A stretch of DNA of 54,377 nucleotides, taken from positions 1-54,377 of IMG/VR virus record IMGVR_UViG_3300044712_000791, one strand, 5' to 3'. The stretch comes from a virus. Below, one piece after another: positions 29,665 through 54,377 of this stretch. A program made the translations under genes and the position numbers. Position 1 is the first letter of the stretch. Each line of letters begins with the position of its first letter. A model generated the notes under the pieces. The model saw only the letters and a program-made list of their open reading frames with translations, did not search any database and had not been told where the DNA came from.

Positions 29665-29904
29665 ATGCTCGAGACCATCACCACCAAGGCCAGCGAGCCG
29701 TCCACGTGGACGGGCCTGGCCAAGATCGCGGTCGCGGTCGGCCTGCTGTACGCCGGCAACGGCTGCGCGGCGCCGACCGACATCGCGTCGCTGACGCTGG
29801 GCGACCTGGCCAGCAAGTTCGGCCTGACCGACGGCCTGGCTGCGCTGGGCCTGCTGATCGGCGCCTATGACGTGGCCCGCAAGGAAGGAGCCCCCCGTGT
29901 CTGA
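29665..29904 (+). CDS. Holin-like small membrane protein
   Basis: 79 aa. I chose ATG 29665, preceded by AGAAAGG; an in-frame ATG at 29623 would add 14 basic residues. There are two hydrophobic segments: KIAVAVGLLYAGNG (about residues 20-35) and GLAALGLLIGAYDVA (about 56-70), with a charged C-terminus (RKEGAPRV). The small two-helix layout before the cell-wall enzyme suggests a holin or antiholin. It overlaps the next gene by 8 nt. Confidence 0.55.
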   Translation: MLETITTKASEPSTWTGLAKIAVAVGLLYAGNGCAAPTDIASLTLGDLASKFGLTDGLAALGLLIGAYDVARKEGAPRV

Positions 29905-30841
29905 CCTCTTCCGACTGGTCCGCAAGGACCTGGCCCGCTGGGCCATCATGGCCGTCATCGCCCTGGGCGTGCTGCTGGCCGGCGCGCCGCTGGCCCTGGC
30001 CCTGAACGAGCCGTCGCTCGGATGGTTCGCCATGGTGACAGCCGGCTCGATCTTCGCGGCCGGCGCCGTGCCGGTGCTGCGCCGGCTGCTGTTCCCCTAC
30101 ATCGACCTGCGCATCGCCTACCTCGAGGCGATGAAGACCGACCCGGGCCGCGTCTTCGTCGGCGTGTGCATCGTCATCGCGGCGCTGGTCCTGTCGCTGG
30201 CCGGCGGCCGGGCGCAGGCGTCGACGATCCCGCGCCAGGCGCTCGAGCACCTGCCGACCCTGGGCCGCGAGCTGGCCACGCACTGGCCGGACGCGCCGGA
30301 ATGGTCGGTGCTCGCTGGCCAGGTCGAGAAAGAGAGCTGCATCACGCTGACGCACAGCCGGTGCTGGAACCCGCGCGCGGAGCTTCGGACGTCGCGCGAG
30401 CAAGGCGTCGGTCTGGGCCAGATCACGCGCACCGCCCGCTTCGACGCGCTGGCCGAGCTGCGCGCCCAGTTCCCCCGCGAGCTGGCCGGCTGGTCCTGGG
30501 ACAGCCCGAACCTGTACGACCCAGCCTTCCAGCTGCGCGCCGTGGTCCTGATGGATCGGCGCAACCACCGCGCGCTGGCCGACGTGCCAGAGCCCGACCG
30601 GATGGACATGGCCCTGGCGGCTTACAACGGCGGCATGGGCGGCCTGATCGGCGAGCGCAAACTGTGCGAGTCGACGCGCGGCTGCGACCCGCGACGATGG
30701 GCCGGGCACGTCGAAAAGACGTCGATGAAGTCCCGCGTGAAGAAGCCGGGCTACGGGCAAAGCTTCTTCGACATCAACCGCGGCTACCCGCCCGGCGTGC
30801 GTGCGCGCGCCGAGAAGTACCGCCCGCTGATGGGAGCCTGA
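29897..30841 (+). CDS. Membrane-anchored lytic transglycosylase (endolysin) with three N-terminal helices
   Basis: 314 aa from GTG 29897 after a strong AAGGAAGGAG. Three hydrophobic helices lie at about 16-36, 42-62 and 86-104, then a soluble domain. The soluble part has the SLT transglycosylase signature: a Glu in QVEKESC (144 or 146), GVGLGQITRTARFDAL (about 170-185), and LAAYNGGMGG (about 245). It should cut peptidoglycan from the periplasmic side. The membrane part may tether it or act as a fused holin. Confidence 0.75.
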   Translation: MSDLFRLVRKDLARWAIMAVIALGVLLAGAPLALALNEPSLGWFAMVTAGSIFAAGAVPVLRRLLFPYIDLRIAYLEAMKTDPGRVFVGVCIVIAALVLSLAGGRAQASTIPRQALEHLPTLGRELATHWPDAPEWSVLAGQVEKESCITLTHSRCWNPRAELRTSREQGVGLGQITRTARFDALAELRAQFPRELAGWSWDSPNLYDPAFQLRAVVLMDRRNHRALADVPEPDRMDMALAAYNGGMGGLIGERKLCESTRGCDPRRWAGHVEKTSMKSRVKKPGYGQSFFDINRGYPPGVRARAEKYRPLMGA

Positions 30842-30842
30842 C

Positions 30843-31172
30843 ATGGGCCTGTTGTCACACATCCTGCGCAGCGCGCAGGGCGACCGACTGACGTGGTGGT
30901 GCCCAGGCTGTGACGGTCCGCACCAGATTGCCCATGGCGCCGGCAATGGGCCGCGCTGGGGCTGGAACGGCAACGCGCAGAAGCCAACGTTCACGCCGTC
31001 GGTGCTGGTCCGCTACGACGGCCCGGATGCCGACACCGAGGACGGCCAGCCGTCGGTCTGCCATTCCTTCGTCGTCGACGGCCAGATGCAGTTCCTGACC
31101 GACTGCACGCACAAGCTGGCCGGCCAGACTGTGCCGATCCCCGCATGGCCCGTGCCGGAGTGGAACGACTGA
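30843..31172 (+). CDS. DUF6527-like phage protein
   Basis: 109 aa. Pattern WWCPGCDGPHQIAHG, WGWNGNAQKPTFTPSVLVRY, VCHSFVVDGQMQFLTDCTHK and LAGQTVPIPAWP match a family of unknown function often encoded beside endolysin genes. Two Cys-x-x-Cys residues and two later Cys/His pairs could bind zinc. The start of the i-spanin gene overlaps the stop (TGATG). Function is unknown. Confidence 0.7.
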   Translation: MGLLSHILRSAQGDRLTWWCPGCDGPHQIAHGAGNGPRWGWNGNAQKPTFTPSVLVRYDGPDADTEDGQPSVCHSFVVDGQMQFLTDCTHKLAGQTVPIPAWPVPEWND

Positions 31173-31696
31173 TGAACGCGCTGCTGGCCGCCATTCCCAA
31201 GCCGGTGCTGGCCCTGCTGGCGGTCGTGCTGGCGGCGCTGCTGGCCGCCCAGACCTTCGTCGCGCAGCGCACCGCCGGCAAGCTGGCCGACGCCCGCGCA
31301 GCGCACGCGGCCGACCGTGCAACCTGGGTCGAGGCCTCCGCATCGTCGGCCGCGCGCGAGCGCGCCCGCGAACAGGCCTGGGCCTCAGCCAACCAGGACA
31401 TCACCGATGCGTACCTTCACCTTGCGTCGCAGCTGGCCGCTGATCGTGCTGCCGCTGATGCTGCAGGCCTGCGGCTTCACCAGGCCGCCCGGTCCGCCGC
31501 CCGCGCCTGTCGAGGCGGCGCGGATCCCGCCGCTGCCGGCGACGGCACGACAGCCGGAGACGCCGGCTTTCTGCTTGCCCAGCTGTTCGAGGCAGCTGAC
31601 CAGCGAGCGGGAGAGCTGGCTGCGTTCGCTGACCGTGCCCACGCCGCCGGCAGCGAGTGCCAGCGGCGGTACGACGCACTGACCACGACGCGCTGA
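31172..31696 (+). CDS. i-spanin (Rz-like, DUF2514-type)
   Basis: 174 aa. Residues 7-26 form the single N-terminal membrane segment (IPKPVLALLAVVLAALLAAQ). The rest is periplasmic and helical, rich in Ala and Arg, ending QRRYDALT. This is the standard inner-membrane spanin. The o-spanin gene is embedded in another frame at 31407-31682. The pair joins inner and outer membranes in the last lysis step and fits a Gram-negative host. Confidence 0.78.
   Translation: MNALLAAIPKPVLALLAVVLAALLAAQTFVAQRTAGKLADARAAHAADRATWVEASASSAARERAREQAWASANQDITDAYLHLASQLAADRAAADAAGLRLHQAARSAARACRGGADPAAAGDGTTAGDAGFLLAQLFEAADQRAGELAAFADRAHAAGSECQRRYDALTTTR
31407..31682 (+). CDS. o-spanin (Rz1-like lipoprotein) fully embedded in the i-spanin gene
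   Basis: 91 aa, in a different frame of the i-spanin gene and ending 14 nt before its stop. The signal sequence LPLIVLPLMLQAC-type core (PLIVLPLMLQAC, residues 11-22) carries a lipobox LQAC with Cys22 as the lipidation site. It continues with a Pro-rich stretch (RPPGPPPAPV), typical of Rz1 proteins. It is anchored in the outer membrane and faces the i-spanin. Confidence 0.8.
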   Translation: MRTFTLRRSWPLIVLPLMLQACGFTRPPGPPPAPVEAARIPPLPATARQPETPAFCLPSCSRQLTSERESWLRSLTVPTPPAASASGGTTH

Positions 31697-31734
31697 AGCG
31701 CCGGACGCCTCAGCACCGCGCACCCATCACTTCA

Positions 31735-31771
31735 CCCACGGGGGGTTCATCCTCCCGTGGGCGCCCACGGG
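31735..31771 (+). other. Alternative hairpins from three CCCACGGG/CCCGTGGG units
   Basis: CCCACGGG (31735-31742), CCCGTGGG (31754-31761) and CCCACGGG (31764-31771) can pair in two exclusive ways: unit 1 with 2, or units 2 and 3, which form an 18-bp perfect palindrome. No T-run follows. The block lies in the short gap between the spanin and methyltransferase genes and could act as an attenuator, processing site or protein site. The rest of the gap (31697-31795) shows nothing else clear. Confidence 0.5.
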
Positions 31772-31795
31772 CCCCCCGACAACCGAGCCGGGCCC

Positions 31796-32872
31796 ATGAT
31801 CGTCGAACACGTCGGCAACGCCACCCTGTACTGCGGCGACTGCCGGGATGTCCTCCCCTCCCTCCCCACCGTCGACCTAGTCCTGACCGACCCGCCGTAC
31901 TTCAAGGTCAAGGGCGACTACTGGGACAATGAGTGGGACGAGCCGCGCGCCTTCCTCGAGTGGCTGGGCGGCGTGGTCGACCTGCTGGCCGCCCGCATGG
32001 CCAGCAACGCCAGCCTGTACCTGTTCGCCTCCCCGCAGATGGCCGGCCGGGTCGAGGTCGAAATCATGCAGCGGCTGCACGTCCTGAACCACCTGGTCTG
32101 GCGCAAGGGCGCGCCAGGCCTGCGCAGCACCAGCCAGGGCAACAAGGCCGACAAGTCCAGCCTGCGCGCGTGGTGGCCAGAGTCCGAGCGCATCGTCTTC
32201 GCCGAGCACTACAACAGCGACAACGCGGCGCGCGGCGAGTCGAGCTACGTGCGCGCATGCGACGAGCTGCGCGGCTTCGTCTTCGAGCCGATCCGGGCCT
32301 ATCTCGACGGCGAGCGCGAGGCGGCCGGCGTGACCCCGGCCGAAGTGAACCAGGCGACCGGCACCCAGATGGCCGGGCACTGGTTCACGCGCGTGCAGTG
32401 GGCGCTTCCGACCGAGCGCCACTACCTGACCATGCGCGCGCTCTTCAGCCAGCGCGGCGGCGAGCGACTGGCCCGCGAGCATGAGTCGCTGCGCCGGGAC
32501 TACCAAGCGCTGGCGACCGAATACGAGGCGCTGCGGGTCCAGTACGACGACCTGAAGGCGCAGTTCGAGGCCCTGCGGCGGCCGTTCGCGGCGCCCCTGA
32601 ACCAGTGGGCCGACGTCTGGGACTTCGACCCGGTGCCAGGCTACCCGGGCAAGCACCCGTGCGAGAAGCCGATGCCGCTGCTGGCTCACATCATCGCGGC
32701 CAGCACGAGGCCCGACGCGCTGGTGCTCGACGCCTTCATGGGCAGCGGATCGACTGGACACGCGGCGCTGACCCTGGGCCGGCGCTTCATCGGCATCGAG
32801 CGCGATCCGGCGATCTTCGCGCAGGCGGTCGAACGCATCCGCGCCTCGCACAACCAGCTTGCCCTCATCTGA
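31796..32872 (+). CDS. DNA methyltransferase, DPPY type (N6-adenine likely)
   Basis: 358 aa from ATG 31796. Catalytic motif TDPPYF is at residues 31-36, and the S-adenosylmethionine-binding end FMGSGSTGHAAL near 315-325, so the motif order is of the beta class. DPPY rather than SPPY points to adenine N6 methylation. An unusual insert at about 222-265 is a charged coiled-coil with heptads (LRRDYQALATEYEALRVQYD), probably for target recognition or dimerisation. No restriction partner is nearby, so protection from host restriction is the likely purpose. Confidence 0.85.
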   Translation: MIVEHVGNATLYCGDCRDVLPSLPTVDLVLTDPPYFKVKGDYWDNEWDEPRAFLEWLGGVVDLLAARMASNASLYLFASPQMAGRVEVEIMQRLHVLNHLVWRKGAPGLRSTSQGNKADKSSLRAWWPESERIVFAEHYNSDNAARGESSYVRACDELRGFVFEPIRAYLDGEREAAGVTPAEVNQATGTQMAGHWFTRVQWALPTERHYLTMRALFSQRGGERLAREHESLRRDYQALATEYEALRVQYDDLKAQFEALRRPFAAPLNQWADVWDFDPVPGYPGKHPCEKPMPLLAHIIAASTRPDALVLDAFMGSGSTGHAALTLGRRFIGIERDPAIFAQAVERIRASHNQLALI

Positions 32873-32906
32873 CCGTTCGTCGGACGACTGCCGGACGTGA
32901 CAAAGT

Positions 32907-32937
32907 AACGCATTGCGCTAACGCAATGCGTTATAAT
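32907..32937 (+). promoter_or_regulatory. Promoter with double palindrome and a TATAAT box
   Basis: AACGCAATGCGTT at 32920-32932 ends in the first T of a perfect TATAAT (32932-32937). An upstream near-copy AACGCATTGCGCT occupies 32907-32919. The two together form an 11-bp inverted repeat (AACGCATTGCG and CGCAATGCGTT) with a 4-nt spacer. No standard -35 box is present. It precedes the gene at 32968, and the layout equals that at 114-131 and 35333-35350. Confidence 0.72.
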
Positions 32938-32967
32938 GTCTTCACGGTAATCGAAACGGAGCGACAG

Positions 32968-33159
32968 ATGAACAAAGCCAAACCGACCCGCGCCTTCGTC
33001 CAGTTCGAGGACGACGTCACCACCGCCATCGAGTTCGCGCTCGAGGTCACGCGCAGCGATGCCCAGGGCATCGTCGAAGCGAACCAGGCGCTGCTGTCGC
33101 GCCTCTTCGCCGACGGCATCGACGCCGCCACCGCCGCCGACCGCATCGCCAACGTCTGA
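32968..33159 (+). CDS. Small acidic protein under the palindromic promoter
   Basis: 63 aa, with GGAG at 32958-32961 before ATG 32968. The product is acidic and helical (FVQFEDDVTTAIEFALEVTR, then ANQALLSRLFADGIDAATAA). There is no membrane segment or metal motif. It is the first gene of a new transcription unit that continues with another small gene and the cytosine methyltransferase. Its small size and place suggest a regulator or an anti-defence moron; this is not shown. Confidence 0.65.
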   Translation: MNKAKPTRAFVQFEDDVTTAIEFALEVTRSDAQGIVEANQALLSRLFADGIDAATAADRIANV

Positions 33160-33176
33160 TCGGACCCAGCCCCATG
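33157..33176 (+). repeat. Recurring gene-junction element (TGATCGGA...ATG)
   Basis: The stop codon of one gene and the start of the next are joined by TGATCGGACCCAGCCCCATG. Very similar junctions occur at 33411-33430 (TGATCGGAGCCCGCACCATG) and 35613-35631 (TGATCGGACCCGCACTATG), and a looser one at 36266-36286. GGA serves as a minimal ribosome site. The repeated junction hints at copying of gene cassettes or at a fixed coupling signal. Confidence 0.6.
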
Positions 33177-33413
33177 TTCACTGGCACCAACCCTTCCGGC
33201 CTCGAGTTCGACGTGATCGACGAGGACGGCGACGTCCTGGGCTCCTTCGCCAACTTCAGCGACGCCTGCGCGTGCGCAAAGGCCGCGCCGTGGTGGCACG
33301 GCCAGACGCGCCTGCGGCGCGATCGCGCCACCCTCGAGCGCCGGCACGCCGCCGAGCTGAAGTACCGCGCCGACGCCGAAGCGGCCTTCCAGGCCTTCTG
33401 CTACGCCTGCTGA
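33174..33413 (+). CDS. Hypothetical small protein, 79 aa
   Basis: Follows the previous gene through the recurring TGATCGGA junction. Contains LEFDVIDEDGDVLGSFANF, a beta-like start, then a helical, Arg-rich part ending FQAFCYAC. Four Cys are present, but no clear zinc pair. It lies directly before the cytosine methyltransferase. Function is unknown. Confidence 0.6.
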   Translation: MFTGTNPSGLEFDVIDEDGDVLGSFANFSDACACAKAAPWWHGQTRLRRDRATLERRHAAELKYRADAEAAFQAFCYAC

Positions 33414-33427
33414 TCGGAGCCCGCACC

Positions 33428-34342
33428 ATGGATGCAATCGACCTGTTCGCGGGCGCTGGCGGCTTCAGCGAGGGCGCCACGGCCGCCGGTGCGCGCGTGG
33501 TCTGGGCCGCCAACCATTGGCCGACCGCCGTCGAGTGGCACAGCGTGAACCATCCGGAGACCGCGCACGCGTGCCAGGACCTGCAGCAATGCGACTTCCG
33601 GACCGCGCCGCGGCATGACCTGCTGCTGGCGTCGCCGGCCTGCCAGGGGCACAGCCGGGCGCGCGGCACCGACAAGCCGCACCACGACGCGCTGCGGTCG
33701 ACCGCCTGGGCTGTCGTGACCTGCGCCGAGGTCCACCGGCCCTACGCGGTGCTGGTCGAGAACGTGCCCGAGTTCGCCGACTGGACCCTCTACCACGCGT
33801 GGTGCGGTGCGATGAACGCGCTGGGCTACGCGCTCGCGCCGCAGGTGATCGACGCGGCCGACCATGGCGTGCCCCAGCATCGGCGCCGGCTCTTCATCGT
33901 CTGCACCAGGTCGCAACACCCGATCGAGCTGGACATGCCCAAGCGCGAGCACGTGCCGATCGGCGCCGCGATCGACTGGGCCGCCGGCACGTGGTCGCAG
34001 GTGAACCGGCCGGGCCGGTCGCTGGCCACCCTGCAGCGCGTGGCGAACGGCCGCCAGCGCTTCGGCGAGCGCTTCGTCATGCCGTACTACGGCAGCGGGT
34101 CCGGCCTGACCGGCCGCAGTCTCGAGCGGCCCCTGGGCACGGTGACGACGCGCGCCCGCTGGGCCGTCGTCGACGGCGACCGCATGCGGATGCTGTCGAT
34201 CGACGAGAACCGTGCCGCCATGGGCTTCCGCCCCGACTACTGCCTCCCGGAATCGCCGGCTGAGGCCGTGCACTTGCTGGGCAACGCGGTGTGCCCGCCG
34301 GTGCCGACCGACATCATCACGGCGCTGAAGAAGGCCGCCTGA
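33428..34342 (+). CDS. DNA (cytosine-5) methyltransferase
   Basis: 304 aa from ATG 33428. Motif I DLFAGAGGF (residues 5-13), motif IV SPACQGHS (about 69-76, with the catalytic Cys in a Pro-Ala-Cys variant of the usual Pro-Cys), motif VI ENV (about 110), motif VIII QHRRRLF (about 150), and motif X GNAVCPP near 285 are all present. The target-recognition region (about 185-260) is short. No restriction partner is seen. With the adenine-type enzyme upstream it probably hides phage DNA from restriction. Confidence 0.87.
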   Translation: MDAIDLFAGAGGFSEGATAAGARVVWAANHWPTAVEWHSVNHPETAHACQDLQQCDFRTAPRHDLLLASPACQGHSRARGTDKPHHDALRSTAWAVVTCAEVHRPYAVLVENVPEFADWTLYHAWCGAMNALGYALAPQVIDAADHGVPQHRRRLFIVCTRSQHPIELDMPKREHVPIGAAIDWAAGTWSQVNRPGRSLATLQRVANGRQRFGERFVMPYYGSGSGLTGRSLERPLGTVTTRARWAVVDGDRMRMLSIDENRAAMGFRPDYCLPESPAEAVHLLGNAVCPPVPTDIITALKKAA

Positions 34343-34416
34343 TCCCCCGGACTGCGGGGTGCAAAGCGCCGACACGAAGACCGAACATCAGCGAGCCCAA
34401 TCAACAGGAGAACCCC

Positions 34417-35262
34417 ATGAACAAGGCCCTCGTGATCCTCTTCGCCGCTGTCGTCGCAGCATCCCCGACCCTGGCCAAGGACGGCAGCAAGTCCGGCGGC
34501 CGTGGCAGCTGCGGCTGCAAGTCCAGCCCGGCCCCGAGCCCCGCACCTGCACCGACGCCTGCCCCCGCTCCCGCGCCTGCGCCGACCCCGGCGCCTGCAC
34601 CGGCGCCCGCTCCGGCCCCTGCGCCCAGCCCGGCCGCTTCCCCCGCGCCCGCACCGAGCCCCGCGCCTGCGGCCCCGTCGGGCGGCAGCTGGAAGCCCGG
34701 CACCGGCCCGACCGACGGCCACCCGTTGACCTGGCGCATCGGCACGCCGCCGGTGATCGCGCTGCGCGATCCGGTCGACGAGCTGGAACTGGACCCGCCG
34801 GCCGCCGGCCAGCGCGAGCCGATCGTGATCTACAGCCCCCCGATGGTCGTGACGCTGCCCAAGGTGATCGAGGCGCCGGCCCCAGCCCCGCAGGCGGTCG
34901 TGCAGCGCGAGCTGGTGCCCGTCTACGGCACGCACGTGCTCTTCGACACCAACCGCTGGGACATGACGCCGCTCGCCCAGGTGTCGCTGAAGATCGCCGC
35001 GCAGCGCGCGCTGCAGATCCCGGGCTCGCGCATCGGTGTCGCCACCGGCCACGCCGACGTCCGGGGCTCGAAGGATCGCAACCGCGTGCTGGCCCAGAAC
35101 CGCGCCGAGTCGGTGATCGCCTTCCTCGTCGGCTTCGGCTACCCCCGCGACCAGATCGAGCTGGTCAACGCTGGCGACGCGCAGCCGCTGATGGCGGGTA
35201 CCACGCCGGCCGCGCACCAGGCGAACCGCCGGGTCGACGTCGTCGTGATGGGCTTGAACTGA
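34417..35262 (+). CDS. Exported OmpA-like protein with a Pro-Ala linker
   Basis: 281 aa. I chose ATG 34417 with AGGAG just upstream. A signal peptide covers residues 1-20 (ALVILFAAVVAASPTLA). After a short Gly/Cys segment (GSCGCK), residues about 38-85 form a long Pro-Ala-Ser repeat. Residues about 168-281 look like an OmpA C-terminal peptidoglycan-binding domain (VLFDTNRWDM, TGHADVRGSKDRN, NRAESVIAFLVGFG, ANRRVDVVV). There is no outer-membrane barrel. In a phage, a periplasmic cell-wall-binding protein could alter lysis or block other phages; both are inferences. Confidence 0.78.
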   Translation: MNKALVILFAAVVAASPTLAKDGSKSGGRGSCGCKSSPAPSPAPAPTPAPAPAPAPTPAPAPAPAPAPAPSPAASPAPAPSPAPAAPSGGSWKPGTGPTDGHPLTWRIGTPPVIALRDPVDELELDPPAAGQREPIVIYSPPMVVTLPKVIEAPAPAPQAVVQRELVPVYGTHVLFDTNRWDMTPLAQVSLKIAAQRALQIPGSRIGVATGHADVRGSKDRNRVLAQNRAESVIAFLVGFGYPRDQIELVNAGDAQPLMAGTTPAAHQANRRVDVVVMGLN

Positions 35263-35332
35263 AGCCCGCCGGCCAGGCCGGCACCCATTCAGGAAACACT
35301 GCGGCCGACGTGAGATTTTCACGCCGGCCGCT

Positions 35333-35350
35333 AACGCTTTGCGTTATACT
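35333..35350 (+). promoter_or_regulatory. Promoter with AACGCTTTGCGTT palindrome fused to TATACT
   Basis: AACGCTTTGCGTT (35333-35345) shares its last T with the -10 box TATACT (35345-35350). No -35 box is evident. This third copy of the palindromic promoter starts the next accessory unit; ATG 35382 has an AAAGGAAA ribosome site. Confidence 0.68.
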
Positions 35351-35381
35351 GTTTTCAACGAAAGCGGAAAGGAAAACCGAC

Positions 35382-35615
35382 ATGACCCCCGACCAGTCCT
35401 CCCTCTTGATCGAAGCTGCGGCCGACCGCGCCGCCGATGGTTCGGCCCTCATGCAGTCGAGCGCCGACCTGTGCCTGGCCGATGCCCGCAAGCTGCACGC
35501 CGAAGGCAAGCACGCCTACGCGGCGCGCCGCGCGCTGAAGTCGCTCGAGTACAGCGTCGGCGTTTTCCACCCGGCCTACACGGCCGCCGCCCGCGTCATC
35601 AACCCCGCCTACTGA
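35382..35615 (+). CDS. Small helical protein under the palindromic promoter
   Basis: 77 aa. I chose ATG 35382 because it is directly downstream of the promoter and a clear purine-rich ribosome site. The protein is helical and Ala-rich (LLIEAAADRAADGSALM, KLHAEGKHAYAARRALKSLE). No membrane or metal motif is present. It leads a unit of many short genes. Function is unknown. Confidence 0.65.
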   Translation: MTPDQSSLLIEAAADRAADGSALMQSSADLCLADARKLHAEGKHAYAARRALKSLEYSVGVFHPAYTAAARVINPAY

Positions 35616-35628
35616 TCGGACCCGCACT

Positions 35629-35835
35629 ATGGCCACTGCATCGTCCACCCTGAGCGCCGCCGAGCGCTACGCCCTCGAAGCCGCAGTGATCGAGCGGCAG
35701 CTGATCGAGCTGAAGGAAAAGCTCGCCGCCCACAAGAAGCGCCAGGCCGCCGACCCGCGCAACTGGGGCTATGCCGGCGACCTGGCGCACGTCGCCACGA
35801 AGCTCGACGAGCTGCTGCCGGCCCTGGGCGGCTGA
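35629..35835 (+). CDS. Small coiled-coil-like protein, 68 aa
   Basis: Joined to the gene before it by the TGATCGGA junction. A helical stretch with regular leucines (ALEAAVIERQLIELKEKLAA) suggests a short coiled coil. After it comes a Lys/Arg-rich patch. Function is unknown; DNA or partner-protein binding is possible. Confidence 0.6.
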   Translation: MATASSTLSAAERYALEAAVIERQLIELKEKLAAHKKRQAADPRNWGYAGDLAHVATKLDELLPALGG

Positions 35836-35873
35836 CCCTCGCTCCCTGCGCCTGCTGGGCGCAGCCGCGAGGG
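35836..35873 (+). terminator. Two-part GC-rich hairpin between small genes
   Basis: CCCTCGC (35836-35842) pairs with GCGAGGG (35867-35873) and, inside it, CTGCGCC (35846-35852) pairs with GGCGCAG (35858-35864). It starts at the stop of the upstream gene. No T-run follows, so it may be a leaky or Rho-assisted terminator, or an RNA-stability hairpin. Confidence 0.45.
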
Positions 35874-35905
35874 CCAGTGGTGGCCCCGACACCCGGAGAA
35901 GCACG

Positions 35906-36268
35906 ATGCACCAGAGTTCCCTGATCGCCCGCCTGGCGACGGCCGTCGCCGGCCTCATGGCCCCGACCGACCTGAGCACGATAGGCGGCGCCAACCTCCT
36001 GCAGGACATCCGCCGCCCGTCGGGCATCTGGCCCGGCCTGGGCCATCGTGGCCAGCCGGCCGCGCGCGGCATCCTGGGCGGCCCGGTCGACCCGATGTCG
36101 CTGGGCAAGAACATGGGCCGCCGCGACAAGCACCGCCAGCGCGTGGCCATGCAGAAGACCCGGACCAGCAACCCGCGCCCCGCGACCCGCCCCGACTTCC
36201 GCGCCCAGATCGCGCAGGAAGCCAAGGCCGCCCGTGGCCGCAAGGCCCGCGCCGCCCGCGCCTACTGA
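35906..36268 (+). CDS. Basic hypothetical protein, 120 aa
   Basis: ATG 35906 is preceded by GGAGAA. The first third has some hydrophobic character (IARLATAVAGLMAPTD). The second half is very basic (GRRDKHRQRVAMQKTRTSN, then KAARGRKARAARAY), which suggests nucleic acid binding. There are no Cys or His clusters. Function is unknown. Confidence 0.6.
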   Translation: MHQSSLIARLATAVAGLMAPTDLSTIGGANLLQDIRRPSGIWPGLGHRGQPAARGILGGPVDPMSLGKNMGRRDKHRQRVAMQKTRTSNPRPATRPDFRAQIAQEAKAARGRKARAARAY

Positions 36269-36283
36269 TCGCCGCGCCCAGCC

Positions 36284-36808
36284 ATGGACCTGCAGAACTA
36301 CGTCGAGCGCGAAGGCTGCCACGAGTGGCAGGGCGCGATGCGCATGAACGCCACCGGCGCGAAGTCCGGCCAGCCGGTCTGGAACACGACCGTCGATGGC
36401 GTGCGCAAGACCTTCACGATCATCCGTGAGGTCTGGAAGGCCGCCGGCCGGCGCATCCCGAAGGGCCACATCGTCTACCGCACCTGCTGCAACGACCGGT
36501 GCATCCGGCTCGCTCACCTGGCGTGCGGCCCGCGAGGATCCGCGCACAAGCACCGCGCGAAGCTGGGCCTGATGCGGCACGGCCTCGAAACGATCGCGAA
36601 GATCACCGAGAAGGCCCGCGCGCGGCCGACGACCAAGTACAACCCGGCGCTGGCCGCCCAGGTCCGTGAGCTGGTGCCGCTGGGCCTGACGAACGAGGAA
36701 ATCTCGAAGCGCACCGGCGTGAGCGTGCCCATGGTGAGCGACATCCGCACCGGCCACGCCTGGCGCGCCGCCGCGCGCGGCGCTTCCGTCTTCGACTTCC
36801 GCCCTTGA
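36284..36808 (+). CDS. HNH-like protein with a C-terminal HTH
   Basis: 174 aa. The first half follows the layout of phage HNH endonucleases (CHEWQGAM, IREVWKAAGRRIPKGHIVY, RTCCNDRCIRLAHLACG). At the place of the usual catalytic His in the HxC element it has Arg-Thr-Cys, so activity may be lost. The C-terminal half has an HTH-like unit (LTNEEISKRTGVSVPMVSDI) as in homing endonucleases. It may be a homing-type endonuclease, a decayed one, or a DNA-binding regulator. Confidence 0.62.
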   Translation: MDLQNYVEREGCHEWQGAMRMNATGAKSGQPVWNTTVDGVRKTFTIIREVWKAAGRRIPKGHIVYRTCCNDRCIRLAHLACGPRGSAHKHRAKLGLMRHGLETIAKITEKARARPTTKYNPALAAQVRELVPLGLTNEEISKRTGVSVPMVSDIRTGHAWRAAARGASVFDFRP

Positions 36809-36844
36809 CCCAAGGCGCCCGGCCATCCGGGCAGAAAGACCCCC

Positions 36845-37240
36845 ATGCAAGTCCGCCTCGTGGATCCGCAGACCTTGAAGGTGGTGCGGACCTTCCCCGA
36901 CATGACCGCAGCGCTCGCCGACAGCAGCTCGCCGCCGTCGGCCATCTGGTGCGAGTGCAACACCGACGAGGAAGCGCCGGCCATGGCCGTGCAGCGCATG
37001 CGCAGCGCGCAGGCGATCATGGAAGGCATACAGGCCGTCGCCGCCGCCGCCGGCACCAAGCCGGCCGCCGACATGGCGCGCCTGCTGATGCGCGTCCGGC
37101 CGCACCTGACCGCGCGCCGCGTGGTCCTCGAGTGGTCGCTGAGCAACGCCGTGACCGAGCACAGCAAGGCCGCCGACTCGCAGAAGCTGCGCGAGCTGCA
37201 GGCCCTGATGAACGACATCGACGCCGCGCTGGGCCGCTGA
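36845..37240 (+). CDS. Hypothetical helical protein, 131 aa
   Basis: Begins with a small beta part (QVRLVDPQTLKVVRTFPDM) and continues as helices (MRSAQAIMEGIQAVAAAAG, then LREL QALMNDIDAALGR-type repeats, given here in parts). It has no membrane segment, no metal site and no enzyme motif. It is followed 2 nt later by a tiny gene, and belongs to the run of short accessory genes under the promoter at 35345. Confidence 0.6.
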   Translation: MQVRLVDPQTLKVVRTFPDMTAALADSSSPPSAIWCECNTDEEAPAMAVQRMRSAQAIMEGIQAVAAAAGTKPAADMARLLMRVRPHLTARRVVLEWSLSNAVTEHSKAADSQKLRELQALMNDIDAALGR

Positions 37241-37242
37241 CC

Positions 37243-37392
37243 ATGAGCCGCCACCACGACCACGAGTATGCGCAGGGCCCGGTGTCGAGCCTGCAGGCCG
37301 GCCGGCACTTCGCCGCGCCGCCGCCCACCCGCAACCCCCGCCCGACCTGGCTGGCCCGCGTGCTGCGCTGGCTCTGGGTCAACGCCTGCTGA
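37243..37392 (+). CDS. Tiny protein, 49 aa
   Basis: ATG 37243 lies 2 nt after the preceding stop. The His-rich start (SRHHDHEYAQG) and Pro-rich centre (AAPPPTRNPRP) end in a short hydrophobic segment (TWLARVLRWLWVNAC) that might sit on a membrane surface. It is too short for a firm call. Context and coupling support translation. Confidence 0.45.
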   Translation: MSRHHDHEYAQGPVSSLQAGRHFAAPPPTRNPRPTWLARVLRWLWVNAC

Positions 37393-37399
37393 GGCCGCC

Positions 37400-37618
37400 A
37401 TGCCCATGACCGTGAAGCAACTGAAGGCCGCCATGGCCGAAGCCCGGCGCTTCCTCGATCGAGGCGACGCGCTGCTGAAGGCTCAAGACCGCGAGCCCAT
37501 CCGCGTGCTGGCCGGCGCCGACTTCGCGCTGACCGACAACCCGCGCGAGCAAGGCGCCGTCCGCCGGGCCTCGATGGACCTGACCCGGTCCCTGGCTGAC
37601 CTGCGCCGCCGCGGCTGA
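37400..37618 (+). CDS. Hypothetical helical protein, 72 aa
   Basis: ATG 37400 follows the previous gene by 7 nt; a second in-frame ATG is two codons later. The sequence is helical (VKQLKAAMAEARRFLDRGDA, then MDLTRSLADLRRRG). There is no known motif. The gene is 2 nt from the next start, so it is probably co-translated. Confidence 0.55.
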   Translation: MPMTVKQLKAAMAEARRFLDRGDALLKAQDREPIRVLAGADFALTDNPREQGAVRRASMDLTRSLADLRRRG

Positions 37619-38105: not shown

Positions 38106-38350
38106 GCAACAACACCCCCGACCCTTGGAGCGCACGCGAGGCCGCGCACATGACGGCGACCGCCCGCATGCTGGCCGCCACCGAAGCAGACTTGCAGCGC
38201 CGGGCCGACCCGGTCCTGCGTGAGCTGCGCGCGCTCCGCGCCGACATCGACGAGCTGAAGAGCTACATCATGGCGCCCCAGACGTCGCTGATCGTCGGCC
38301 CGGAGGCCGTCGCCGCCTTCCGTCAACTGCAGAAGGGCGGTGCAGCATGA
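38102..38350 (+). CDS. Small helical protein, 82 aa
   Basis: GTG 38102 overlaps the previous stop (GTGA). The central part is a long Leu/Arg/Asp-rich helix (LQRRADPVLRELRALRADID). The next gene starts inside the stop (ATGA). Oligomerisation by coiled coil is possible; function is unknown. Confidence 0.55.
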   Translation: MSNNTPDPWSAREAAHMTATARMLAATEADLQRRADPVLRELRALRADIDELKSYIMAPQTSLIVGPEAVAAFRQLQKGGAA

Positions 38351-39060: not shown

Positions 39061-40434
39061 TTAACGTGTTGAACGCTTCCGATGAGCAAGAAGCCTCTCC
39101 GTGTTGAATCGCTGCTCGCACAGGTCGCAGACCAGGGCGCGCTTCGCACGCTGTTCCCGGGTGACCGGCGGCAGGGTGACCGGGTGCATGTCCTCGGCTC
39201 GGCATGGCAGCCCGCAGTTCCCGCACGGGTTCCCAGCGTCCCGGATGAGGAACTCGAACTGGAGCGGCTTCTTGGGCGGCTCGCCGTACTTCGCCAGCGC
39301 CCGGGCACGCAGCACCTCGTAGCTGTAGCCCCGGCCGCCCTTGACGATGTGCTTGAGCAGGTTGTTCAGCGACTCCGTGTAGGCGTTGGTGTACGGGTGG
39401 TCGAAGACGGCCAGAATCTCCGTGCGCCAGTTCCGCATGGCCGTGAGCAGCGGCTTGAACTCCGTCTTGATGGCCGGCGTGACCAGCGAGGGGAACTCGT
39501 CCCAGGCCTTCAGGGCTTCCGCCTTGGGCAGCTCGAACAGGCTGTAGAACGCTTCCTTGGCCTTGTAGGCGGCGGCAATCTCCGGCTCGTTGTCCAGCCA
39601 CATCCCGAGGTTGAAGCGCTGCTTCTCGGTCAGGTTGCGGGGCCGCTTGTTGAGCTGCACCTTGGACCGAATCCAGGCCCTGCGCACCTCGTCGCCCTTG
39701 GTCTTGGCCAGCCTGATGCGCACGTCGTCCATCCCCTCGCCGGCCATCCGCAGGATGTGGAACTTGTCCACCACGATGGCCGCCTGGGGCAGCAGCTCGC
39801 GCGCCAGGCGCTGATAGGGGCGCCACATGTCGATGGTCACCACCTCGACCTTGGAGCGGTCCTTGAACTGCCCCAGCCACCGGGCCACGGTGTCCTTGTC
39901 CCGGCCGGGGAGCATGTCCAGCAGTCTCCGACCCTCCACGTCCGTGACCACCAGGCGCAGCTCGCCGGCAATCTGGGTCTCGTCCATTCCCAGCACCCGA
40001 GGAAGGCGGGGCCGGTGTTGGGCAGCCAGTTCGGCCATCCGCTCGGCAGCCACGGCCCGGACGGTCTTCTCGTCCACGCCCACCTCCCGGGCGACGTGCG
40101 CGAAGGTGTGCCGCAGGGCCGCCTTGGCGATGAACTCCGCACAGCGCTCCGTCATGCGCCGCTCGTCCAGAACGCCGCCCAGGGGCTGCAGGAAGGTCTC
40201 CCCGCAGTCCCGGCAGCGGTAGCGCCTCACCGTGGCCTCCAGCTTGGCCGAGAAGCCCCGGATGGGCGAGTCGGCGTAGGTGGTGGTCTTGGTGCCGTGC
40301 CGGTACAGGCTCATGCCCCCGCACTTGGTGCAGGCCCGCGGCTCGTGCAGGTACTCGGCCGAGAAGGTCTCCACGCCCTCCTCGGTCCTCTTGTCGGTCA
40401 GCGTCCAGCCGTCCATGTCCAGGATGTCTCTCAT
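39061..40434 (-). CDS. ISL3-family transposase
   Basis: 457 aa. N-terminal zinc-binding part with CTKCGGMSLYRHG and CRDCGETFLQP (residues about 35-85), then HTH-like FIAKAALRHTFAHVAREVGV, then the DDE catalytic region (VLGMDETQIAGELRLVVTD, VVTIDMWRPYQRLARELLP, VVDKFHILRMAGEG, and later TNAYTESLNNLLKHIVKGG with the final Glu). This matches the ISL3 transposase layout. The stop lies within the left inverted repeat. An extra C-terminal zinc part (CGNCGLPC, CDLCEQRF) is also seen. Confidence 0.93.
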   Translation of the reverse strand: MRDILDMDGWTLTDKRTEEGVETFSAEYLHEPRACTKCGGMSLYRHGTKTTTYADSPIRGFSAKLEATVRRYRCRDCGETFLQPLGGVLDERRMTERCAEFIAKAALRHTFAHVAREVGVDEKTVRAVAAERMAELAAQHRPRLPRVLGMDETQIAGELRLVVTDVEGRRLLDMLPGRDKDTVARWLGQFKDRSKVEVVTIDMWRPYQRLARELLPQAAIVVDKFHILRMAGEGMDDVRIRLAKTKGDEVRRAWIRSKVQLNKRPRNLTEKQRFNLGMWLDNEPEIAAAYKAKEAFYSLFELPKAEALKAWDEFPSLVTPAIKTEFKPLLTAMRNWRTEILAVFDHPYTNAYTESLNNLLKHIVKGGRGYSYEVLRARALAKYGEPPKKPLQFEFLIRDAGNPCGNCGLPCRAEDMHPVTLPPVTREQRAKRALVCDLCEQRFNTERLLAHRKRSTR

Positions 40435-52352: not shown

Positions 52353-54093
52353 CGCCTCGTGCAGCACCATGACCGACCAAGACGACAGCGGCGCACCGCC
52401 GCAGGAGACCCCGCCACCAGCTCAGGGCGCCGACGTGGTGTCGCTGGGCGAGCACCTCGAGGCGGCGCGACGACAGCGACGGGCCGCCTGGCCGGACGAG
52501 GTCCGCGCGATCGTCGACGCGGTGCAGGCCGGCGACGTCGGCGCGATGCTGCAGCCGGCCGCCCTGCAGGTCCTGATCGCACTCGAGCGTGACGCGCTCC
52601 CGCAGTGGGTCGAGGTCAAGGACGAGCTGAAGCGCCTGAAGGCCCCGGTGTCCGACCTGACGAAGGCGATGAAGGCCCTCGCGCCGGCGCCGACGCCCGC
52701 GCCACGGGGGGAGGGGGCCGGCCGGCAGAAGTCGGCGAAGCCGAAGAAGTCCATCAACTTCGGCGACGTGAACCGGCTGACCGAAAACTTCGCGCTGCTG
52801 TACGGCACGGACACGGTCTGGGATGGCGAGCGCCGCGTCATCATGAAGATCAACGCGCTGCGCCTGGCCTTCGGCAACGATGCCGTGAAGATGTGGCTGG
52901 GCTCGAAAGAGCGCCGGCTGGTGCCGATCGAGAACGTCGTCTTCGAGCCTGGCATCGACGTCGGCCCGGACTCGATCAACCTGTTCGGCGGCCTGCCCGT
53001 CGAGCCGGAGCCGGGCGACTGCAGCGTGATGATCGAGCTGCTGGCCCACCTGTGCAGCGAGTCGGCGACGACCGACACCGGCGTGGCCGCCGTGATGGAC
53101 TGGGTGTTGCGCTGGGTCGCCTACCCGCTGCAGCACCCGGGCGCGAAGCTGCAGACCGCGCTGGTCTTCCATGGCGCGCAGGGCACCGGCAAGAACCTCT
53201 TCTTCGACGCGGTGCGCGACCTGTACGGCGACTACGGCGTGATGGTCAGCCAGAACGAGCTGGAAGACAAATTCACGAGCTGGCTGTCCCGCAAGCTGTT
53301 CATCGTCGGCGACGAGGTCGTGACCCGGGCCGAGATGTACCACAAGAAAAACCAGCTGAAGTGGCTGGTGACGGCCGACAAGAAGATCCCGATCCGGGCG
53401 ATCCAGCAGGACGTGCGGCACGAGTCGAACCACGTCAACCTGGTCTTTCTGTCGAACGAGTCGCAGCCCCTGGCCCTCGAGGATGGCGACCGCCGCTATC
53501 TGGTCGTCTACACACCGATGAAGGGCCCCGAGGACCTGTATCGCCGCGCGTCCGAGTTCCTGGCCAGCGGCGGCGCGCGCAAGTTCCTGCACTACCTGTT
53601 GACGCTGGACCTGGGCGACTTCAAGCCCAGCACCAAGCCGCTGATGACCCAGGCGAAGGCCGACCTGATCGAGCTGGGGCTGAAGCCTGCCGAGCGCTTC
53701 GTGTCCGAGTGGCTGGGTGGCTTCCTTCCCCTACCGGTGCGGCCCTGCAGCGCAGAGCAGGTGTTCCAGGCCTTCCGCAAGTGGTGCGACAAGATGGGCG
53801 AGCGCGCGTGGACACCCCAGGCGACGTTCACCAAGACCCTCGAGCGCTGGGTGCTTGAACGGTCCGAGGTCGACGCGTCCGGGGAGCGCATGCCCCCGCG
53901 CCTGGCCTACAAGGTCGTGAAGCTGGTCCACGAGGATGGCGGGCGCAAGTGCGTGCGCTGCTGGATCCCGGTCGGCTGCGGCCCTCAGAACGGCGAGACC
54001 GAGGGCGCATGGATGGCTGGCTGCGTGCAGGACTTCCAGCCCATGGTGGACCGCTTCTGCCGCACCAACAGCCATGCCGAGGGGGAGCAGTGA
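52342..54093 (+). CDS. SF3-type replicative helicase (DUF5906-like)
   Basis: 583 aa from ATG 52342 (GGAG at 52328); ATG 52369 is an alternative. The N-terminal 130 residues are partly disordered. The ATPase has Walker A FHGAQGTGKN (about 276-285), Walker B KLFIVGDEVV (about 318), and a motif C-like LVFLSNES (about 367-374). The segment KKIPIRAIQQDVRHESNHVN is typical of phage and satellite primase-helicases. A helical C-terminal domain may bind DNA. It should unwind the origin directly downstream. Confidence 0.85.
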   Translation: MQRNASCSTMTDQDDSGAPPQETPPPAQGADVVSLGEHLEAARRQRRAAWPDEVRAIVDAVQAGDVGAMLQPAALQVLIALERDALPQWVEVKDELKRLKAPVSDLTKAMKALAPAPTPAPRGEGAGRQKSAKPKKSINFGDVNRLTENFALLYGTDTVWDGERRVIMKINALRLAFGNDAVKMWLGSKERRLVPIENVVFEPGIDVGPDSINLFGGLPVEPEPGDCSVMIELLAHLCSESATTDTGVAAVMDWVLRWVAYPLQHPGAKLQTALVFHGAQGTGKNLFFDAVRDLYGDYGVMVSQNELEDKFTSWLSRKLFIVGDEVVTRAEMYHKKNQLKWLVTADKKIPIRAIQQDVRHESNHVNLVFLSNESQPLALEDGDRRYLVVYTPMKGPEDLYRRASEFLASGGARKFLHYLLTLDLGDFKPSTKPLMTQAKADLIELGLKPAERFVSEWLGGFLPLPVRPCSAEQVFQAFRKWCDKMGERAWTPQATFTKTLERWVLERSEVDASGERMPPRLAYKVVKLVHEDGGRKCVRCWIPVGCGPQNGETEGAWMAGCVQDFQPMVDRFCRTNSHAEGEQ

Positions 54094-54101
54094 GCCCGAC
54101 C

Positions 54102-54350
54102 GGTTACGCATGCACCCCGCTGGTTACGGGTGCGGTTTCGCGTGGAACCCCCGTAGTTACGCGAGTTTCGCGAGTTACGCATGGTTCCCCGTACATGCGT
54201 GTGCGTGCGTGCGTAGGCGGGCGCGTGCGTGGCGTGCGTGCGTGCGTGTCTGTGTGCGCACACGAGGACACCATGCGTAACCGCGTAACTCGCGTAACCA
54301 CGGGGCATGCATGCGTAACCGCATGCGTAACCTGCACGGCCACGCGTAAC
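54102..54350. other. Inverted array of GTTACGC/GCGTAAC repeats: candidate replication origin
   Basis: Directly after the helicase gene. Forward units (GTTACGC-like) begin at 54103, 54123, 54156, 54165 and 54174; the last three are tandem 9-mers. Reverse units (GTAAC) end at 54281, 54289, 54298, 54319, 54331 and 54350. Arms 54149-54184 and 54271-54305 form a near-perfect inverted repeat of about 35 bp. Between them is an alternating purine-pyrimidine tract of CGTG units (about 54191-54263). Iterons and dyads next to a helicase gene are usual for phage and plasmid origins. No coding sequence is evident from 54094 to 54377. Confidence 0.62.
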
Positions 54351-54377
54351 CCGCCCCGCCCACGCCCCCCGCTTGTC

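Follow-up and report, generated by a model that had tools for sequence, protein, structure and literature searches.

The 54,377-nucleotide stretch of viral DNA analysed here, which we call the window, carries at 34417–35262 a gene whose product is predicted to be a secreted, barrel-less accessory protein that binds peptidoglycan. This description is well supported by the sequence, and we hold its biochemical core, an exported, wall-bound protein of the OmpA/RmpM type, with high confidence.

Gene and protein layout

The open reading frame encodes 281 amino acids, which divide into the following parts:

34406–34410, + strand: ribosome-binding site AGGAG, read from the sequence, 7 bases 5′ of the ATG
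34417–35262, + strand: gene for the secreted OmpA-like protein, 281 aa, ATG start (open reading frame, PF00691, phrog_7897)
34417–34476, + strand: predicted signal peptide, residues 1–20, type I site TLA^K, no lipobox (sequence reading and hydropathy)
34510–34518, + strand: Cys-Gly-Cys (CGC) motif, C32 and C34, identical in the one relative (L002, see below)
34519–34680, + strand: Pro-Ala-Ser arm, residues 35–88 (sequence composition)
34681–34929, + strand: spacer, residues 89–171 (83 residues), beginning GGSWKP, 44% identical to the relative, low model confidence
34939–35229, + strand: OmpA peptidoglycan-binding domain, residues 175–271 (PF00691, 44.3 bits)

Export is strongly predicted. The signal peptide proposed in the original prediction is borne out, on sequence reading and hydropathy, by a lysine at residue 3, a hydrophobicity maximum of 2.36 (15-residue window from residue 5) and a predicted cleavage site, TLA^K, after residue 20. 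Hydropathy over the whole protein gave no second transmembrane-like segment. Residues 1–171 comprise signal, CGC motif, Pro-Ala arm and spacer and contain no outer-membrane barrel, as had been claimed. The Pro-Ala-Ser repeat is also real, but it is 54 residues long (24 P, 20 A, 7 S, 2 T, 1 K) rather than about 48. C32 and C34 are the sole cysteines of the protein; through them it could conceivably dimerise or form a disulphide with a host protein. The lipoprotein reading was rejected because the RGS preceding C32 is not a lipobox. The full-length structure model (pLDDT 47.1) was too poor for a fold search.

The OmpA domain and its ligand residues

The protein scores 44.3 bits with PF00691, for which the cut-off is 27.2, and covers model positions 1–98 of 98, confirming the C-terminal OmpA-type domain that had been claimed; it also matches phrog_7897, a phage family with no assigned function, with 67.9 bits. 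Two residues within the domain correspond to the diaminopimelate-binding pair of AbOmpA:

35056–35058, + strand: D214, counterpart of AbOmpA Asp271 (GHAD motif and spacing; PMC12108004)
35101–35103, + strand: R229, counterpart of AbOmpA Arg286 (LAQNRAESV motif and spacing; PMC12108004)

D214 and R229 lie 15 residues apart within GHAD...NRxLAQNRAESV, and Asp271 and Arg286 of AbOmpA are likewise 15 apart (review PMC12108004). Both residues are retained in the window protein and in its relative, which settles in its favour the alignment check that the original prediction had proposed for the Asp and Arg contacting peptidoglycan. The domain and its ligand residues are strongly predicted, and from them we infer that the protein binds peptidoglycan through D214 and R229 in the cell.

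A structure model of the domain, built from a five-row domain alignment, reached a pLDDT of 70.7 and a pTM of 0.71. At E ≤ 0.001, Foldseek gave 107 matches for it in the PDB. The best were to E. coli Pal (1oap, 9.1e-9), A. baumannii Pal and P. aeruginosa OprF (5u1h); AbOmpA with its bound diaminopimelate pentapeptide (3td5) and TolB–Pal complexes were among the others. A profile search of PDB sequences also matched Pal. Among the NCBIfam families, YiaD, Pal, YfiB and Bordetella OmpA were all matched below their cut-offs, so the protein is a member of the domain family but of none of these equivalog families. YiaD had the top score, with only the OmpA part aligned; identity with YiaD was rejected on that score (64.3 against 175) and on the glycine zipper. 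Identity with Pal was rejected as well, since C32 is preceded by RGS rather than a lipobox and TIGR02802 scored 55.5 bits against 125.35.

A single relative and the pattern of conservation

One orthologue was found, a 262-aa protein with its parts in identical order, on the 56-kb IMG/VR contig IMGVR_UViG_3300022744_000033 (L002). The two proteins are 62% identical over residues 89–272 and 78% identical within the OmpA domain. Residues 1–40 are only 37% identical, yet the CGC motif and the Pro-Ala arm are retained. Comparison of the two genes gave dN/dS values of 1.2 for residues 1–40, about 0.74 for the spacer and 0.29 for the OmpA domain; the value of 0.14 for the arm is unreliable because the arm is a repeat. 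The OmpA domain thus appears to be under purifying selection, although the selection estimates and the motif conservation rest on a single comparison, only two members having been found.

The genomes around the two genes are largely unrelated (TerL 23%, portal 24% and head protease 33% identical). Local matches also occur in the small protein after the head protease (41% identical), in a segment of a methyltransferase (47%) and in a stretch of the protein at 38347 (42%). Could the gene be a neutral passenger, acquired and now decaying without a present role? The fast divergence of the N-terminus and spacer and the rarity of the gene among phages would fit, but decay is hard to reconcile with the low dN/dS of the OmpA domain, with an architecture kept whole in two such different phages, or with a good ribosome-binding site and a phage-typical third-position GC (0.91, similar to the neighbouring genes). 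We regard it as very improbable.

Judged by eye from the translations, the relative's gene is flanked by a nuclease-like gene and by genes resembling those for a single-stranded DNA-binding protein and a DNA polymerase. A small membrane protein frame (L002 10561–10782) starts across its stop codon and is a possible partner.

Operon, promoters and time of expression

The region around the gene, together with a distant copy of its promoter element, is laid out as follows:

113–130, + strand: third exact palindrome, with TAGAAT, before the packaging/structural genes
32906–32936, + strand: tandem palindromes overlapping TATAAT, presumed operon promoter (sequence)
32968–33159, + strand: 63-aa ORF, first in the presumed operon, no NCBIfam match (query from codon 2)
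33174–33413, + strand: 79-aa ORF of the presumed operon (ORF list), no NCBIfam match
33413–34342, + strand: C5-cytosine DNA methyltransferase preceding the OmpA-like gene (PF00145, 130.5 bits)
35301–35331, + strand: hairpin 3′ of the OmpA-like gene, 13-bp stem and 5-nt loop, possible terminator, no T-run on this strand
35332–35350, + strand: palindrome TAACGCTTTGCGTTA overlapping TATACT, next promoter

The palindrome TAACGCNNNGCGTTA is present in three exact copies in the window, at 113–127, 32919–32933 and 35332–35346, with a one-mismatch copy at 32906 in tandem with the second. No exact copy occurred in 100 first-order Markov sequences used as a control. Each exact copy lies upstream of a + strand gene, and its right arm runs into a −10-like hexamer (TAGAAT, TATAAT and TATACT, respectively); the three are a promoter family of the window phage. 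The OmpA-like gene does lie between two palindromic promoters, as originally described, and is likely to be the last gene of a + strand operon consisting of the 63-aa ORF, the 79-aa ORF, the C5 methyltransferase gene and itself. A sigma-70 scan of 31500–37500 found no site carrying both hexamers, and an activator or a phage-specific factor may therefore be involved. No exact copy of TAACGCNNNGCGTTA is present in the relative's contig, and the palindrome was not seen between the CI-like and Cro-like genes. The C5 methyltransferase gene and a second DNA methyltransferase gene, of the N6/N4 type (31796–32872), flank the palindromic promoter.

The original prediction had the gene expressed in the lysogen or early. 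The early part of this holds up better than the lysogenic part: lytic expression, early or middle, is more likely than expression confined to the lysogen, because the promoter element is also found at 113–127 and the relative's gene lies amid replication-like genes. The copy of TAACGCNNNGCGTTA before the block leading to the terminase and head genes suggests, without proving it, that the OmpA-like gene is regulated together with lytic genes.

Relation to lysis

29665–31696, + strand: lysis cassette of a small membrane protein, a membrane-anchored transglycosylase, a phrog_3362 protein and an Rz-like spanin, common to the relative

Three of the four cassette proteins are 55–75% identical to those of the relative, and the Rz-like spanin is 57% identical over part of its length. 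The shared cassette hints that the two phages face a common envelope. The endolysin (29897–30841) has about three hydrophobic segments in its N-terminal membrane part, which is fused to a lytic transglycosylase-like part; Bordetella phage FP1 has separate, overlapping genes for holin and endolysin. The spanin gene (31172–31696) contains an embedded Rz1-type lipoprotein frame (31407–31682, LQAC lipobox).

The strongest DNA matches between the window and the relative are this cassette and the OmpA-like gene. Such a pairing would fit a lysis helper, a soluble domain that competes with host Pal, OmpA or RmpM for peptidoglycan, and perhaps for TolB, and so loosens the outer membrane for the spanins. 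The nearest solved structures, Pal and the TolB–Pal complexes, are consistent with this, as is the lack of a membrane anchor, because of which the protein would not itself link wall and membrane. However, a competitor would have no need of the conserved arm and CGC head, and the window already encodes an endolysin and Rz/Rz1 spanins. Nor is the linkage close, the relative's gene lying about 8 kb from its lysis cassette. Linkage was also compared in four other contigs with related endolysins, one of them the known relative, and only there (1 of 4) was an OmpA domain found. Of the three contigs other than the relative, one, whose endolysin is 80% identical, has none within about 6 kb downstream; as the three are 6–29 kb long, absence from them is weak evidence. 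We consider a lysis helper rather unlikely. The arm and the CGC motif favour tether functions over simple competition, and the position of the relative's gene speaks for early or middle expression rather than for an exclusively late role in lysis.

Distribution and comparison with known systems

Viral contigs, searched with protein and alignment queries, and genome contigs yielded no second orthologue. The remaining matches were remote bacterial OmpA proteins, or a protein of 1260 aa with repeats and an OmpA domain. The latter, on a 132-kb viral contig (L029 2404–6186), has many Asp-rich calcium-type repeats and carries the domain at its C-terminus. Among 50,697 phage records a single one matched at E ≤ 1e-5; it aligned with 37% of the protein at 34% identity and is not a close copy. 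Nothing was found in a sample of 369 genomes from the class of one remote match, a test of little weight with no positive control. The window protein matched no defence family; the relative's protein gave weak ZorB and ZorF matches that fell on the generic OmpA/MotB domain and on the signal and Pro-Ala part. No protein of this build, short and exported with a CGC motif and a Pro-Ala arm, was found outside the window and its one relative.

RmpM-type proteins have no barrel. RmpM/PIII of Neisseria and BP0943 (RmpM) of Bordetella likewise consist of an N-terminal part followed by a C-terminal OmpA domain, and the window protein shares with them the lack of a barrel, the C-terminal domain and, as predicted from its sequence, export. 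RmpM uses its N-terminal part to associate with porins and with the Omp85 complex, and it is regarded as fixing the outer membrane to the wall through porin binding, which that part presumably carries out (PMC8610307, PMC4226279). The window protein differs in being phage-encoded and in having the CGC motif and long Pro-Ala arm as its N-terminal part.

This likeness (Bordetella BP0943, PMC8610307) raises the question of a captured host envelope gene of the barrel-less OmpA/RmpM type, retained by phages because it benefits the lysogen by strengthening its envelope. Both phage proteins do match OmpABordt (NF045787, NCBIfam), but the scores of 52 (window) and 56.6 bits are far below the cut-off of 200. 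Moreover, none of 84,980 species genomes held a close copy for the patterns used, and neither the promoter element before the packaging genes nor the position of the relative's gene suggests expression in a lysogen. Capture for this purpose thus seems unlikely.

Pal, the nearest solved structure by sequence and fold, shares the ligand motif with the window protein, which lacks the lipobox and hence the lipid anchor. E. coli OmpA and Pseudomonas OprF also carry a C-terminal peptidoglycan-binding domain after a linker; membership of this porin family was rejected because the window protein is without their N-terminal barrel.

OmpA-type domains are annotated or can be detected in a few other viruses, including Cellulophaga phage phi17:2 (R9ZWT8), virus sp. 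ctML55, Bacillus phage G (gp249/gp250), the Prevotella Lak phages and uncultured viruses; phrog_7897 is a phage family of this kind. The five best BFVD matches to the window protein are 16–25% identical to it, and the phage G proteins are about 520 aa long against 281 aa. The CGC/Pro-Ala arm was seen in none of these other phage proteins, as far as they were compared. In the literature found, no function is reported for the other viral OmpA-domain proteins, and no phage-encoded barrel-less OmpA with a function is described.

Proposed role

In the proposed mechanism, the phage would export a soluble periplasmic protein through Sec. Its Pal/OmpA-type domain would bind host peptidoglycan non-covalently, with D214 and R229 gripping diaminopimelate, while the Pro-Ala arm would keep the CGC head at a distance from the wall. 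A disulphide at the CGC motif, whose use we infer from the two cysteines, could link one molecule to another or to a host envelope protein. The result would be a wall-anchored tether without a membrane anchor of its own, working like a barrel-less OmpA/RmpM. Probably made in the lytic programme, it would most plausibly condition the infected cell's envelope, so that the wall stays intact and rival phages are kept out until the time set for lysis. This is the best explanation of the whole, and we put its chances at about even. Protection against superinfection, taken by itself, is speculative and somewhat doubtful; no sequence feature shows exclusion. T4 Sp acts in superinfection exclusion by preventing wall degradation by the incoming phage's lysozyme (PMC11436027); we propose it as an analogy only, its mechanism being different from that of the window protein.

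A more specific arrangement would be a disulphide-joined staple, in which two OmpA domains on Pro-Ala arms, linked through CGC and made lytically, hold or shield peptidoglycan against rivals until lysis. We think this quite improbable; if true, it would be a new class of phage envelope protein. Most phage proteins known to work on the cell wall from the periplasmic side are enzymes or spanins, together with a few exclusion proteins, and a non-enzymatic wall-binding phage protein would reveal another mode of envelope conditioning in infection.

Other features of the window

An ISL3-family transposase gene lies within the phage genome at 39061–40434 on the − strand (PF01610, 198 bits), suggesting an insertion sequence in the accessory region. 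The element had no near plasmid match, only distant protein matches, and did not trace the host. After the last gene, positions 54093–54377 hold dense GTTACGC/GCGTAAC repeats that resemble origin iterons.
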